Source of the DNA: a virus
DNA: 26,434 bases
IMG/VR virus record: IMGVR_UViG_3300044617_000234
Location: 1-26,434 of that record
Direction: 5' to 3' (one strand)
A program made the translations under genes and the position numbers. Positions 6,229 to 23,610 of this stretch are shown here, in pieces. Below the pieces are notes generated by a model. The model searched no databases. It had not been told where the DNA came from and saw nothing but the letters and a program-made list of their open reading frames with translations. Each line of letters begins with the position of its first letter. The first letter of the stretch is position 1.

Positions 6229-6651
6229 ATGGCCCGTATCGTATTAACAGATGCCTCAGTTGTAATTAACGGCACAAATTTAAGCCAATATATTACGAGT
6301 GTGGCACTTTCAACAAGCGAAGATGTTGTTGACACTACAGGAATGGCAGCGGGCGGAGCGCGTACCCGTGTTGCTGGCCTTGCTGACAATTCAGTCACAT
6401 TTGAATTTAATCAAGATTTTGATGCTCTAGGAACTGAAGTAACAATCAATGCAGTTGGTTCATCACTTGTTGGAACAAATGTAACTTGTGTAGTAAAGCC
6501 AACATCAGGAGCAGTAGGTGTTTCAAATCCTAGTTATTCATTTTCAGCAGTTGTTGCAGAGTGGCAGCCACTATCAGGTGCGGTTGGAGAACTGGCAACA
6601 GTTTCTACAACTTGGCCGATCTCAGGCGTGATTACAAAGGCAGTTGCATAA
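6229..6651 (+). CDS. Tail tube protein, paralogue 1
   Basis: 140 residues of beta-rich sequence. It starts MARIVLTDASVVINGTNLSQYITSVALS, has DVVDTTGMAAGGARTRVAGLADNSVTFEFNQDFD in the middle, and ends AEWQPLSGAVGELATVSTTWPISG. This is the pattern of a siphovirus tail tube protein, which stacks in hexameric rings to form the DNA conduit. Position ahead of the tail assembly chaperone and tape measure supports this. It is clearly paralogous to the next gene; which of the two builds most of the tube cannot be told. Confidence 0.75.
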   Translation: MARIVLTDASVVINGTNLSQYITSVALSTSEDVVDTTGMAAGGARTRVAGLADNSVTFEFNQDFDALGTEVTINAVGSSLVGTNVTCVVKPTSGAVGVSNPSYSFSAVVAEWQPLSGAVGELATVSTTWPISGVITKAVA

Positions 6652-7107
6652 ATGGCACGCCTTGTACTAACAGATGCCAATGTTTTGTTTGCAACATCAC
6701 CTGGTAACGCTGCAACAAATGACATTTCAGCGTTTATTACATCACTTTCATTAAGCACATCTTATGATGTAATTGACACCACAGGAATTTCAACTACAGG
6801 TGCAGCTCGTACCCGTGTTGCTGGCCTTGCCGATAACTCAATCACCATTGAGTTTAACAATGATTATGCAGACAATTCACTTGAAGAACTTATTAACGGA
6901 ACGACAACCACAAACGGCACTGTTGGCTTAGTAGTTGCAATGCAGGTTAAGCCAACATCAGGTGCAACAAGTGCCAGCAATCCAAAGTATAATTTCAATG
7001 TGCTTGTTGCAGAATGGCAGCCACTATCAGGTGCAGTTGGTGAATTATCAACGGCATCTGTAACTTGGCCGATCTCAGGTCCAATTACAAAATCAATTAC
7101 ACCGTAA
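6652..7107 (+). CDS. Tail tube protein, paralogue 2
   Basis: 151 residues, starting one base after the stop of the previous gene. It shares MAR(I/L)VLTDA, the block ending GARTRVAGLADNS, and AEWQPLSGAVGEL with its neighbour, but has inserts after residue 12 and in the middle (LEELINGTTTTNGT). Both copies are intact. It may form part of the tube, a tube with alternating rings, or a specialised ring at one end. The next gene begins after AAGGGGGAAAAG, a strong ribosome-binding site. Confidence 0.75.
   Translation: MARLVLTDANVLFATSPGNAATNDISAFITSLSLSTSYDVIDTTGISTTGAARTRVAGLADNSITIEFNNDYADNSLEELINGTTTTNGTVGLVVAMQVKPTSGATSASNPKYNFNVLVAEWQPLSGAVGELSTASVTWPISGPITKSITP

Positions 7108-14054: not shown

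Positions 14055-14058
<4 letters not shown>
13711..14058 (+). CDS. Fibre-associated beta protein, 115 residues
   Basis: It starts [22 protein letters not shown] and includes [20 protein letters not shown] and [13 protein letters not shown]. This pattern (an N-terminal 'IEQG.TF', then 'DLTGYTAR') occurs in small phage tail or baseplate proteins that sit next to fibres, similar in style to the N-terminal domain of BppU-type proteins. It overlaps the collagen-like fibre by ATGA, so it may attach or support that fibre. The start follows TTGGAGTAATTAA. Function is inferred from context. Confidence 0.6.
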
Positions 14059-16199
<2,141 letters not shown>

Positions 16200-21588: not shown

Positions 21589-21638
21589 ACGAAACCGCCA
21601 CCTGCAGCCGTTCCTGCAAGTGGCGGTTTCGTGCTTTT
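21589..21638 (+). terminator. Intrinsic terminator after the structural and glycosylation block
   Basis: A perfect 13-bp stem, ACGAAACCGCCAC (21589-21601) with GTGGCGGTTTCGT (21620-21632), and an 18-base loop, followed by GCTTTT. It is 25 bases past the last plus-strand stop. Genes on the opposite strand end at 21642, so it sits between converging transcripts; its U-tract favours the plus strand. Confidence 0.85.
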
Positions 21639-21641
21639 AAT

Positions 21642-21770
21642 CTAATCTTTCAAATAATCCTGCAACGCCATAATTACAATCTTTGTAACAGTAAAGTGAT
21701 TGGCCTTTGCCTTAACTTTTACTGCCAGCCAAAGTTCTTCAGGCACTCGAATTGATCTAAGTGGGGTCAT
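21642..21770 (-). CDS. Ribbon-helix-helix DNA-binding protein, 42 residues
   Basis: Last gene of the leftward cassette, overlapping its upstream neighbour by ATGA. It begins MTPLRSIRVPEELWLAVKVK, continues AKANHFTVTKIVIMALQDYL, and ends KD. This is the full minimal Arc/MetJ/CopG fold: strand RSIRVP, helix EELWLAVKVKAKA, turn, helix VTKIVIMALQDYL. Such proteins bind palindromic operators as dimers. It could control its own cassette, whose promoter region has a perfect 12-bp palindrome (22907-22918); that link is inference. Confidence 0.7.
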   Translation of the reverse strand: MTPLRSIRVPEELWLAVKVKAKANHFTVTKIVIMALQDYLKD

Positions 21771-21931
21771 AGAACCACGCACTCACTCATTGAACCCCAA
21801 CACCAGCCAAGAAACTCGGCACTCGGTGCATCAATGCCAACCCACCAAAGGTTGCTGGCAACTTGCCAAATGAGAATCAGGCCAACTGCAATTGCAACTG
21901 CTCGTACTTGCTTGCCACGCTTTGTAATCAT
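21767..21931 (-). CDS. Small membrane protein, 54 residues
   Basis: The ATG at 21931 follows GGAG at eight bases and lies one base past the previous stop; a TTG ten codons upstream would run into the preceding gene. MITKRGKQVR is a basic start, followed by a membrane segment AVAIAVGLILIWQVASNLWW, then a polar end with FLGWCWGSMSECVVL. The positive-inside rule puts the N-terminus in the cytoplasm. It overlaps the ribbon-helix-helix gene by ATGA. No family recognised. Confidence 0.65.
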   Translation of the reverse strand: MITKRGKQVRAVAIAVGLILIWQVASNLWWVGIDAPSAEFLGWCWGSMSECVVL

Positions 21932-21932
21932 C

Positions 21933-22106
21933 TTAACGCTCCAATTCTTCAATGTGGGCAATGGTTAGTGCAGAGTTCACAATTGCCCTGCGAAGTGATT
22001 GCTTCATCTCATCAAAATCGCCTGATTCGCTTGCTTCATTAAGATCACGGCTGATTTGATACATAGTGTCAGCAATATCAATTACCAAAGATTTCATAGC
22101 ACCCAT
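21933..22106 (-). CDS. Unknown helical protein, 57 residues
   Basis: Starts one base after the previous stop, with GGAGAAC upstream. MGAMKSLVIDIADTMYQISR is followed by an acidic link (DLNEASESGDFDE) and the helix MKQSLRRAIVNSALTIAHIE ending ELER. A second ATG three codons in is possible. Predicted to be all helical, perhaps dimeric. No family recognised. It sits in the middle of the tightly packed leftward cassette. Confidence 0.6.
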   Translation of the reverse strand: MGAMKSLVIDIADTMYQISRDLNEASESGDFDEMKQSLRRAIVNSALTIAHIEELER

Positions 22107-22107
22107 T

Positions 22108-22230
22108 TTAGTTGTTCTCCAAGTTCGCTAGGTATGCCTCAAAACAAGGCAGACATAAATTGACTTTCATAACTGATTCAAATGTTTCTTTACAGGCATT
22201 GCACTTGCAGGTGTAATTGGTGCTAAACAT
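22108..22230 (-). CDS. Zinc-ribbon-like mini-protein, 40 residues
   Basis: ATG in a TAATG overlap with the upstream gene. The protein starts MFSTNYTCKCNACKETFESV and continues MKVNLCLPCFEAYLANLENN. C8, C10, C13, C26 and C29 supply a probable zinc site (CxC..C and CxxC), followed by a short helix. Such tiny zinc ribbons are common in phages, but their partners are rarely known. The junction with the upstream gene contains one copy of a 17-base repeat (22228-22244). Confidence 0.65.
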   Translation of the reverse strand: MFSTNYTCKCNACKETFESVMKVNLCLPCFEAYLANLENN

Positions 22231-22244
22231 TATGCACCTGCCTT
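22228..22244 (-). repeat. 17-base gene-junction repeat, copy 1
   Basis: On the minus strand AAGGCAGGTGCATAATG ends the 69-residue gene (residues KAGA, stop) and starts the 40-residue gene. The same 17 bases occur at 22682-22698 at another junction of the cassette. The repeat includes an AGG-containing ribosome-binding stretch, the stop and the next start. Confidence 0.7.
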
Positions 22245-22439
22245 GTAATTAAGAAGATTAGCAAGGCGTGGGTCAGCCATATCAATTTGTGCTTCTTTGG
22301 CAAGTTTAACAATTTGCTTGGTTGTTGCTGAACCCCAGCGAAATCCGTCATACCAATTATTGATAAAATCTTGAATCTTGCTTGCTGATTCCATATCAAT
22401 TTGCAAGTTTCTAGCGATAATTTCGGTGTATAGATTCAT
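22230..22439 (-). CDS. Unknown protein, 69 residues
   Basis: Start at the ATG 22439, two bases past the previous stop, with GGGAG upstream at a longish spacing; a TTG at 22457 would overlap the neighbour. The product begins MNLYTEIIARNLQIDMESAS, has KIQDFINNWYDGFRWGSATT in the middle and ends NLLNYKAGA. Mixed charged helices with aromatic residues. No family recognised. The last four residues KAGA and the following ATG are shared with the junction at 22682-22698. Confidence 0.62.
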   Translation of the reverse strand: MNLYTEIIARNLQIDMESASKIQDFINNWYDGFRWGSATTKQIVKLAKEAQIDMADPRLANLLNYKAGA

Positions 22440-22441
22440 AA

Positions 22442-22684
22442 TTACTTTGGCTCCCAACCTGATACTTCACAAAGCATTTCTGAAATATCTAATGGGCAGG
22501 CATACTTAAAAACAGTTGGTGCATAAGTCTCATTAAGAACCTGCTGAACATCCTCATCACAATTTTCATAAATTTCTAGTAAATCGTGAAGAAATGATTG
22601 ATACTTGTTAATTGTTTCTTCCATTTGTGCAATTGCTTCAGCCTTTGTATAAGTCTGATCTGTTGAAATCCATTGTGCGTTCAT
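22442..22684 (-). CDS. Unknown acidic helical protein, 80 residues
   Basis: ATG in a TAATG overlap with the upstream zinc-binding gene. It begins MNAQWISTDQTYTKAEAIAQ, continues with a long acidic helix (MEETINKYQSFLHDLLEIYE), and ends EMLCEVSGWEPK. Strongly acidic small phage proteins are sometimes inhibitors or DNA mimics, but nothing here proves that. No family recognised. Second gene of the leftward cassette. Confidence 0.62.
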   Translation of the reverse strand: MNAQWISTDQTYTKAEAIAQMEETINKYQSFLHDLLEIYENCDEDVQQVLNETYAPTVFKYACPLDISEMLCEVSGWEPK

Positions 22685-22698
22685 TATGCACCTGCCTT
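22682..22698 (-). repeat. 17-base gene-junction repeat, copy 2
   Basis: Identical to 22228-22244: codes for the terminal KAGA of the 56-residue zinc-binding protein, its TAA, and the overlapping ATG of the 80-residue protein. The flanking coding sequences are unrelated. Confidence 0.7.
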
Positions 22699-22854
22699 TA
22701 CAAAGCCATTGACTGAAGATAAATTCTCACCAACGCATTGTGCGCAAAGGTCAAAGGCAAGAATTAATGAATCAAACTTAAAAACATCATTGCCTTTGTA
22801 TTCAATAGTGGTTTTGATTGTTTCTTTGTTTCTGTTACAGAAATCGCACTTCAT
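22684..22854 (-). CDS. CxxC/CxxC small zinc-binding protein, 56 residues
   Basis: First gene of the leftward cassette. MKCDFCNRNKETIKTTIEYK starts with a C3-x-x-C6 knuckle, and LAFDLCAQCVGENL supplies C37-x-x-C40, giving a classical four-Cys zinc ribbon with a beta hairpin between. It ends GFVKAGA, and the stop overlaps the next ATG. Upstream in its direction are a hairpin leader and promoter-like boxes. Function is unknown; DNA or RNA binding is typical for the fold. Confidence 0.65.
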   Translation of the reverse strand: MKCDFCNRNKETIKTTIEYKGNDVFKFDSLILAFDLCAQCVGENLSSVNGFVKAGA

Positions 22855-22869
22855 TTTGAACCCCGTCCT

Positions 22870-22926
22870 ATTGGGAGCCGTTCCCCCAATGAGATAAACT
22901 TAGCACCTGTATATACAGACAAGCAA
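22870..22926 (-). promoter_or_regulatory. Candidate promoter and leader of the leftward cassette, with operator palindrome
   Basis: Read on the minus strand: TTGCTT (22926-22921), 18 bases, TAAGTT (22902-22897), which fit -35 and -10 boxes. CTGTATATACAG (22907-22918), a perfect 12-bp palindrome, lies within the spacer, an ideal place for a repressor. An alternative pair is TTGGGT with TATATA. Just downstream, ATTGGG (22890-22885) and CCCAAT (22875-22870) can form a leader hairpin before the first gene at 22854. All boxes are by eye. Confidence 0.45.
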
Positions 22927-22992: not shown

Positions 22993-23064
22993 CGGCTGAA
23001 AGCGTGGGAACCCGAAGAAATTGGGGAATTGCTAGGGTTTCCACGCCTTTCCACACCTTTGCCC

Positions 23065-23079
23065 TACACTTGGCCAATG
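23065..23079 (+). promoter_or_regulatory. Possible leaderless start of the Ntn-hydrolase gene
   Basis: TACACT (23065-23070) is followed by six bases and then ATG (23077-23079). This places a -10-like box at -12 to -7 if transcription starts on the A of the ATG. No Shine-Dalgarno sequence precedes the ATG. Leaderless mRNAs are common in Actinobacteria. The -35 region is weak. Confidence 0.4.
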
Positions 23080-23610
23080 ACCACGCTAATAGCCTTTCAG
23101 GGGCCTGATTTTGCCATTCTAGGGGCAGACTCTCAGGTGACCGATGGCGATAAGCGCATCATCTCACCCAGCACGCCCAAGATCGTAAAGCTGAAGAAGT
23201 ATTTGCTGGCAGTTAGCGGTGATTGCAGGCCAGGTGACATTCTCACTTACAACTGGACACCGCCCGCTTTTGATGGCACTAACCCAGTTACCTTTATGGG
23301 TCGAAAGATCATCCCAAGCATCATTGCGGCGTTTAAGTTGCAGGGATTTGATTACACCAAAGAAGGAATCAGTTATTCATACTTGTTGGCCTTTGCTGGC
23401 AATGTATTTGAAATTGGCGATGACTTGAGCGTTACCCAATCTGAAGATGGCCTGTATGGGGTCGGCTCAGGCAGTGCCTACGCGCTTGGCGCATTGGCGG
23501 AGCTGGTGCCCAATGTCGGCAAGGCTGAAATCCTCAAGGCACTTGCCATTGCCGCTAAATATGACATCAACACCGCCAAACCTTTTCAGATTGAAGTTCA
23601 GCGAGTCTAG
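23077..23610 (+). CDS. Proteasome beta/HslV-like Ntn-hydrolase
   Basis: 177 residues from the ATG at 23077, close to the length of HslV. After removal of Met the chain starts TTLIAFQGPDFAILGADSQV. Counting that Thr as 1, Asp is at 17 exactly as in proteasome beta subunits, and PKIV puts Lys at 34, one off the usual Lys33. AVSGDCRPGDIL matches the strand-turn after the active site, and LYGVGSGSAYALGALAEL is the family GSG(S)..ALGAL motif, followed by the helix AEILKALAIAAKYD. There is no propeptide, as in HslV. It would be a threonine peptidase, perhaps forming rings, but no ATPase partner is encoded here. Longer TTG starts at 23029 would hide the Thr and are unlikely. Confidence 0.82.
   Translation: MTTLIAFQGPDFAILGADSQVTDGDKRIISPSTPKIVKLKKYLLAVSGDCRPGDILTYNWTPPAFDGTNPVTFMGRKIIPSIIAAFKLQGFDYTKEGISYSYLLAFAGNVFEIGDDLSVTQSEDGLYGVGSGSAYALGALAELVPNVGKAEILKALAIAAKYDINTAKPFQIEVQRV

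Follow-up and report, generated by a model that had tools for sequence, protein, structure and literature searches.

A combinatorial cassette of tiny opposite-strand genes, with neighbours switching at a start-associated linker, in phages of probable freshwater actinobacteria

We analysed a virus record of 26,434 bases (hereafter the window). Between positions 22854 and 21642, its minus strand is filled from end to end by seven open reading frames (ORFs) of 40-80 aa, which we number g1 to g7 in the direction of reading (Table 1). The spacings between successive genes are -1, +2, -1, +1, +1 and -4 nt. On both sides of this cassette the main genes lie on the plus strand, with glycosyltransferases and a DUF6378 protein to the left, and a proteasome-like hydrolase, WhiB and a PD-(D/E)XK nuclease to the right. 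An initial annotation had proposed just such an inverted run of seven tiny, touching genes, two of them Cys-rich, one membrane-bound and the last encoding a ribbon-helix-helix (RHH) protein. All of this held, including the coordinates and spacings: g1 and g4 each carry two CxxC pairs, g6 has a single hydrophobic stretch, and g7 matches RHH repressor profiles. The remark that most of the frames are shorter than usual gene-calling limits was overstated, as ORFs of about 90 nt are within reach of common gene callers. The g7 frame might also start at an upstream GTG (21782), giving 46 aa instead of the 42 aa from the ATG at 21770; we prefer the latter because most relatives begin at the ATG. In an alignment of 12 relatives, all four Cys residues of g4 are invariant.

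Two further genes of the window deserve mention. The proteasome-like hydrolase (23029-23610, plus strand; Pfam Proteasome, 1.3e-6) adjoins the cassette promoter, and a protein related to it in Actinomycetia phage DSL-LC01 carries the annotation ATP-dependent protease subunit. In the structural region, a large collagen-like protein of 714 aa with G-x-y repeats is encoded at 14055-16199 (plus strand).

Table 1. Features of the cassette in the window, and positions of module m16 in relatives.
Feature	Position	Strand	Properties
Predicted promoter	22897-22926	-	-35 TTGCTT (22926-22921), 18-nt spacer, -10 TAAGTT (22902-22897)
Palindrome CTGTATATACAG in promoter spacer	22907-22918	-	Candidate g7 operator
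5' leader hairpin	22870-22890	-	Hexaloop GAACGG (22883-22878); -10.8 kcal/mol, z -2.75
g1	22684-22854	-	56 aa; CxxC...CxxC; swappable, 6/63 cassettes; pN/pS 0.19
Linker AAGGCAGGTGCATAATG, g1-g2 junction	22682-22698	-	Core absent outside cassettes
g2	22442-22684	-	80 aa; swappable, 6/63 cassettes, plus second lineage; pN/pS 0.28
g3	22230-22439	-	69 aa; swappable, 8/63 cassettes; pN/pS 0.41
Linker AAGGCAGGTGCATAATG, g3-g4 junction	22228-22244	-	Same linker sequence as g1-g2
g4	22108-22230	-	40 aa; CxxC...CxxC; near-constant, 52/63 cassettes; pN/pS 0.18
g5	21933-22106	-	57 aa; predicted helical hairpin; near-constant, 58/63 cassettes; pN/pS 0.29
g6	21767-21931	-	54 aa; one hydrophobic helix; near-constant, 58/63 cassettes; pN/pS 0.28
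g7	21642-21770	-	42 aa; RHH; 63/63 cassettes; ATGA overlap with g6; pN/pS 0.27
Terminator hairpin (predicted)	21589-21632	-	19 bp; hexaloop GAACGG (21613-21608); -37 kcal/mol, z -7.7
m16 in relatives	L022:4174-4332; L039:3820-3978; L056:2234-2392; L061:1852-2010; L076:3594-3752; L078:3810-3968	-	52 aa

Searching with g2, g1 and the hydrolase next to the cassette led to 79 loci, and removal of duplicates left 63 non-identical cassettes, the window counted, all at the same place. Since a locus entered the set through its similarity to g1, g2, g6 or the hydrolase, the frequencies given here are conditional on those genes. Genes in the relatives were called with a mechanical gene chain, and module families were clustered after leader trimming. 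Neither megablast with the right half of the window nor tblastn with g2, g5 and g6 returned a match among 50,697 phage records. The best portal match, Pontimonas phage phiPsal1, is without a GAACGG hairpin of at least 5 bp and without such an array in its annotation. Since WhiB, the GC content of about 45% and the glycosyltransferase genes resemble those of isolated Ca. Planktophila phages (WhiB, glycosyltransferase, GC 44.8%; PMC10202952), the host is probably a freshwater actinobacterium. A second phage lineage (L010-L012, L215, L217, L228, L230, L233, L234, L242, L245, L246, L249, L252, L265, L266, L268, L269 and L272) draws on the same pool of modules, namely m5, m6, m8, m9, m10, m15, m16, m48 and g2. 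It has also retained g6 and the GAACGG leader; its g7 and operator differ, and two further overlapping genes follow its g7.

The 63 cassettes together contain 430 ORFs with a median length of 54 aa, falling into 60 families (24 of them singletons; Chao1 about 108). Each cassette consists of 5-9 tiny genes, arranged in 58 distinct architectures with 121 distinct neighbour pairs. More than one neighbour context was found for 26 of the 32 recurrent swappable families, g2 and g3 occur in both orders among the relatives, and extra genes also enter between g5, g6 and g7. The gene for the RHH protein, found in every cassette, is the last one in 57. As this comparison of cassettes shows, both content and order are combinatorial, the same operon having apparently been rebuilt from a pool of at least 60 small genes.

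Recurrent DNA, AAGG[C/T]AGGTGCATA-ATG, lies at junctions between otherwise unrelated modules. This linker encodes the C-terminus K-A/V-G-A and the stop of the upstream gene, and carries a Shine-Dalgarno-like AGGTG and the start for the next. Indeed, K-A-G-A or K-V-G-A is the commonest C-terminus in 18 of the 60 families, and the codon choice within the linker is fixed to a degree that the amino acids alone would not require. The core of the linker, GGTGCATA(A)ATG, occurred 69 times in 89 kb of cassette sequence and not once on either strand in 391 kb of flanks; a hold-out set of 30 further contigs gave 21 occurrences inside cassettes and 0 outside. When shared modules with unrelated upstream neighbours were aligned, identity was 0.92 in the module, 0.71 in the linker (measured over the 13 nt before the stop codon, with ten families contributing) and 0.26 beyond, the similarity around the linker ending sharply at -16. 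These alignments show that the switch between unrelated neighbours falls at a linker of 15-17 nt. Such an identity profile would be expected if exchange occurs at the linker, and selection for translational coupling could contribute to it. A linker-like sequence, AAAGGCAGTTGCATAAATG, similar to the KAVA variant of the linker, is also present elsewhere in the window (6632-6654, plus strand), where it joins two tandem paralogous plus-strand genes (6229-6651 and 6652-7107).

Translational coupling might account for the linker entirely. The linker would then be a coupling signal kept by selection only, and modules joined by illegitimate recombination would survive when they happened to carry a good ribosome site. 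The Shine-Dalgarno-like AGGTG and the TAATG overlap within the linker are consistent with this idea, as is the fact that the junctions g4-g5, g5-g6 and g6-g7 function with other sequences. However, no other gene in the 391 kb of flanks uses the linker, its conservation extends past the Shine-Dalgarno part to AAGG and GCATA and fixes codons, and the similarity breaks off abruptly at -16. We therefore regard coupling alone as an unlikely explanation, albeit one that retains appreciable weight, and favour recombination at the linker.

The cassette is also framed by two hairpins that have the loop GAACGG in common but not the stem, and both stems show covariation among relatives. The 5' hairpin is placed just after the predicted transcription start. 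Its GAACGG loop occurs in 62 of the 63 leaders, a count conditional on the motif GAAC[CG]G by which leaders were located, and the hairpin exists in 36 sequence variants; the second lineage keeps the leader loop despite a different promoter. In 44 of the 63 leaders another GAACGG stands ahead of the first start codon; at this place the window has GGACGG. The 3' hairpin is a predicted terminator that probably works in both directions. Among relatives, 12 of its 13 stem pairs show changes on both sides, and its covariation score was 0.73, against 0.20 for shuffles and at most 0.22 for slid controls. Almost all phage loci tested with the corresponding covariance model contained a single strong copy. 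Among 296 genomes from a single actinobacterial class, with 24 candidates scored per genome, the model gave only 3 matches at E<=0.001, so that within this sample the hairpin does not look like a general host terminator. The exact terminator core, GCAGGAACGGCTGCAGG, when sought in genome contigs, appeared among the matches listed in unrelated taxa and mostly with short stems, and we attribute these matches to chance. In two relatives (L025 and L071) the gene m33, whose Cys-rich product of 146 aa looks HNH-like by eye, sits between g7 and the left neighbour and has its own GAACGG-loop hairpin behind it.

A search of the region against Rfam gave no match near gathering score. Tentatively, and at rather long odds, the paired hairpins may represent a new regulatory RNA element, with some factor recognising the invariant hexaloop at both the 5' leader and the 3' end. 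A reading of the loop as a CsrA-type GGA site was dropped because of a C-G closed variant without GGA. The element might even work without a protein: a bidirectional terminator would give the convergent transcript a 3' hairpin whose loop (CCGUUC) is complementary both to that of the leader hairpin and to the other GAACGG, ahead of the first start codon, so that late convergent RNA could silence the operon through loop-loop pairing. We consider this protein-free variant highly improbable.

Upstream of the leader hairpin, the pattern TGNTANNNT of the predicted promoter is retained across most leaders, and the promoter spacer accommodates a palindrome. Within the loci, TGTATATACA is restricted to leaders, with 48 occurrences, and GTAT[AGT]TACA is found in 59 of 63 leaders; the other four carry diverged g7 types. 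Three relatives (L032, L034 and L036) are near-identical apart from the number of copies of a tandem repeat of about 50 bp, containing GGCGGTGGTGGCGGTGGT, in the spacer between hydrolase and promoter.

By its profile matches, g7 is a minimal RHH (Arc-like) protein. It matches PHROG 6506 ('Arc-like repressor') at 5e-9 and, among solved RHH repressors, AvtR (7.3e-5) and omega (0.013); residues R8, L13, W14 and A21 are invariant. The g7 of the second lineage (MVGKK[VI]RSVRV) is accompanied by a repeat around GTATGGAT at the same promoter position (for example in L011, L215, L217, L242, L245, L265, L266, L269 and L272). A diverged g7 is thus paired with a diverged candidate operator both in the second lineage and in four clade-A relatives, while g7 types 1 and 2 have the same candidate operator despite an identity of about 50%. 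This co-occurrence, which reflects few independent changes, lends some support to g7 being an autorepressor of the cassette operon.

An RHH gene that overlaps a membrane-protein gene by ATGA is also reminiscent of a toxin-antitoxin pair, with g6 as the membrane toxin and g7 as the RHH antitoxin, and Pfam CopG_antitoxin indeed gave a weak match (0.039, under the cut-off). Yet other genes (m11, m31) come between g6 and g7 in relatives, g6 can be exchanged with g7 left in place, and g6 matches no toxin family. Nor does the cassette look like a lysogeny module with an RHH repressor, as eight relatives of 30-35 kb, whose records are possibly incomplete, yielded no Phage_integrase. Both possibilities strike us as improbable, and we retain the autorepressor reading.

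A few leads bear on what the modules might do. Small, putatively zinc-binding folds seem frequent among them, since g1, g4 and eight other families carry two or more CxxC motifs. An AlphaFold2 model of g5 consists of two helices (pLDDT 92.6). Another lead is m16, absent from the window and inserted between g5 and g6 in relatives (Table 1). Four of its six members matched PHROG 1307 (RNA polymerase inhibitor; 0.0014), Pfam RNA_pol_inhib was matched at 0.0058, and Foldseek returned weak matches to YkzG (0.5) and T7 gp2 (0.83), with fold E-values of 0.4-1. Weakly but repeatedly, m16 thus resembles T7 gp2 and the RNA polymerase-binding YkzG, a hint at host takeover. None of the remaining families tested by sequence search gave a usable match.

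The initial annotation had interpreted the cassette as an early host-takeover or regulatory module. Its own predicted promoter, the palindrome in the core promoter and the terminal RHH gene speak for a regulatory or accessory module, as do its divergence from the replication-side genes and the predicted terminator that it shares with the convergent genes. Host takeover is plausible only, from the likeness of m16 to RNA polymerase-binding proteins. The modules may act early on the host. Were they late or virion-related instead, a predicted promoter of their own and a direction opposite to the structural genes would be surprising, as would small size, high turnover and an RHH gene; no structural family was matched, and we think a late role very improbable. 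That the ORFs are chance open frames without function, as their shortness and the few database matches might suggest, is practically excluded because every frame is conserved, with pN/pS far under 1 in all seven (0.18-0.41, calculated from sequence pairs with pS<0.5 only), and 356 of 367 gene junctions in the 63 cassettes fall within -4 to +2 nt. This comparison with relatives was the check proposed at the outset, for broken frames or missing synonymous bias, and purifying selection was evident in each frame.

The closest published parallel to the linker is provided by the SAS/ESAS of Cluster K mycobacteriophages, also phages of Actinomycetota, in which the SAS is a short, start-proximal sequence common to unrelated non-structural genes and of unknown function (PMC3203893). 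Like the SAS, the linker is an asymmetric repeat right before the starts of unrelated small genes, in one orientation; it overlaps preceding stop codons, has a Shine-Dalgarno part and is absent elsewhere. In contrast, the linker, AAGG[CT]AGGTGCATAATG, does not conform to the 13-bp SAS consensus GGGATAGGAGCCC, and it is confined to one operon, whereas the SAS is spread over the right half of the genome. Unlike the SAS, the linker doubles as coding sequence for a common C-terminus, and the modules next to it have visibly been swapped. The inverted repeats of the ESAS differ from the GAACGG hairpins of the cassette.

Lambdoid phages show boundary-sequence mosaicism, for example in the nin region, where small genes, densely arranged and with stops that overlap starts, are mosaic gene by gene. 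The cassette is similar in that a short conserved sequence borders the swapped modules (identity of 0.71 between 0.92 and 0.26). However, the borders in lambda are specific to gene pairs, whereas in the cassette a single linker recurs at many unrelated borders, and a module can be followed by any other. Short boundary sequences have been put forward as sites of recombination in phages, but such sequences are reportedly missing from most mosaic borders (PMC3029335).

With regard to its regulation, the cassette resembles acr-aca operons, in which the repressor binds to inverted repeats located in the core promoter (PMC9410906): variable tiny genes come first and a DNA-binding regulator last (g7 in 57/63 cassettes), and the inverted repeat CTGTATATACAG lies inside the core promoter, between the predicted -35 and -10. 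It differs in that g7 is an RHH protein rather than a member of the HTH Aca family, and in that it contains no known Acr. In archaeal viruses, early anti-defence regulons likewise unify unrelated tiny genes by one regulatory sequence, with a promoter copy per gene (PMC11065993) as opposed to one operon with a translational linker. As a minimal RHH protein, g7 is akin to repressors of the Arc/CopG/omega type, from which it is set apart by a length of only 42 aa, a new candidate operator and a position at the fixed end of an exchangeable array. We did not find the combination of array and linker described in the open-licence papers searched, and two papers on freshwater actinophages make no mention of such an array.

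In conclusion, we favour, with a probability of roughly 0.58, the view that the cassette is a self-repressed accessory operon of the acr-aca-like kind, which acts on the host or its defences and has been diversified by recombination at a start-associated linker. One predicted promoter would drive a compact message bounded by the two GAACGG-loop hairpins, on which variable small genes (here g1-g3) would be followed by the near-constant core g4-g6 and by g7. Once made, g7 would bind the palindrome between -35 and -10 and shut the operon down. During co-infection, modules would be exchanged by homologous recombination at the linker and the shared core genes, and exchange at these places would keep each swap in frame with a working start signal. 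In the least certain step, the modules would act on the host early in infection, either taking over its machinery or blunting its defences, which would account for their small size and fast turnover. While the modularity of the cassette is plain from the relatives, the function of the modules and the timing of their expression are inferred.

The cassette offers a natural test case of the way in which genes with a probable action on the host are shuffled by phages. With the repeated sequence present at dozens of junctions in common freshwater phages, and with natural recombinants in plenty, this question becomes open to direct test. Furthermore, the cassette points to a reservoir of at least 60 families of tiny proteins as candidates for host-directed or anti-defence functions in freshwater phages.
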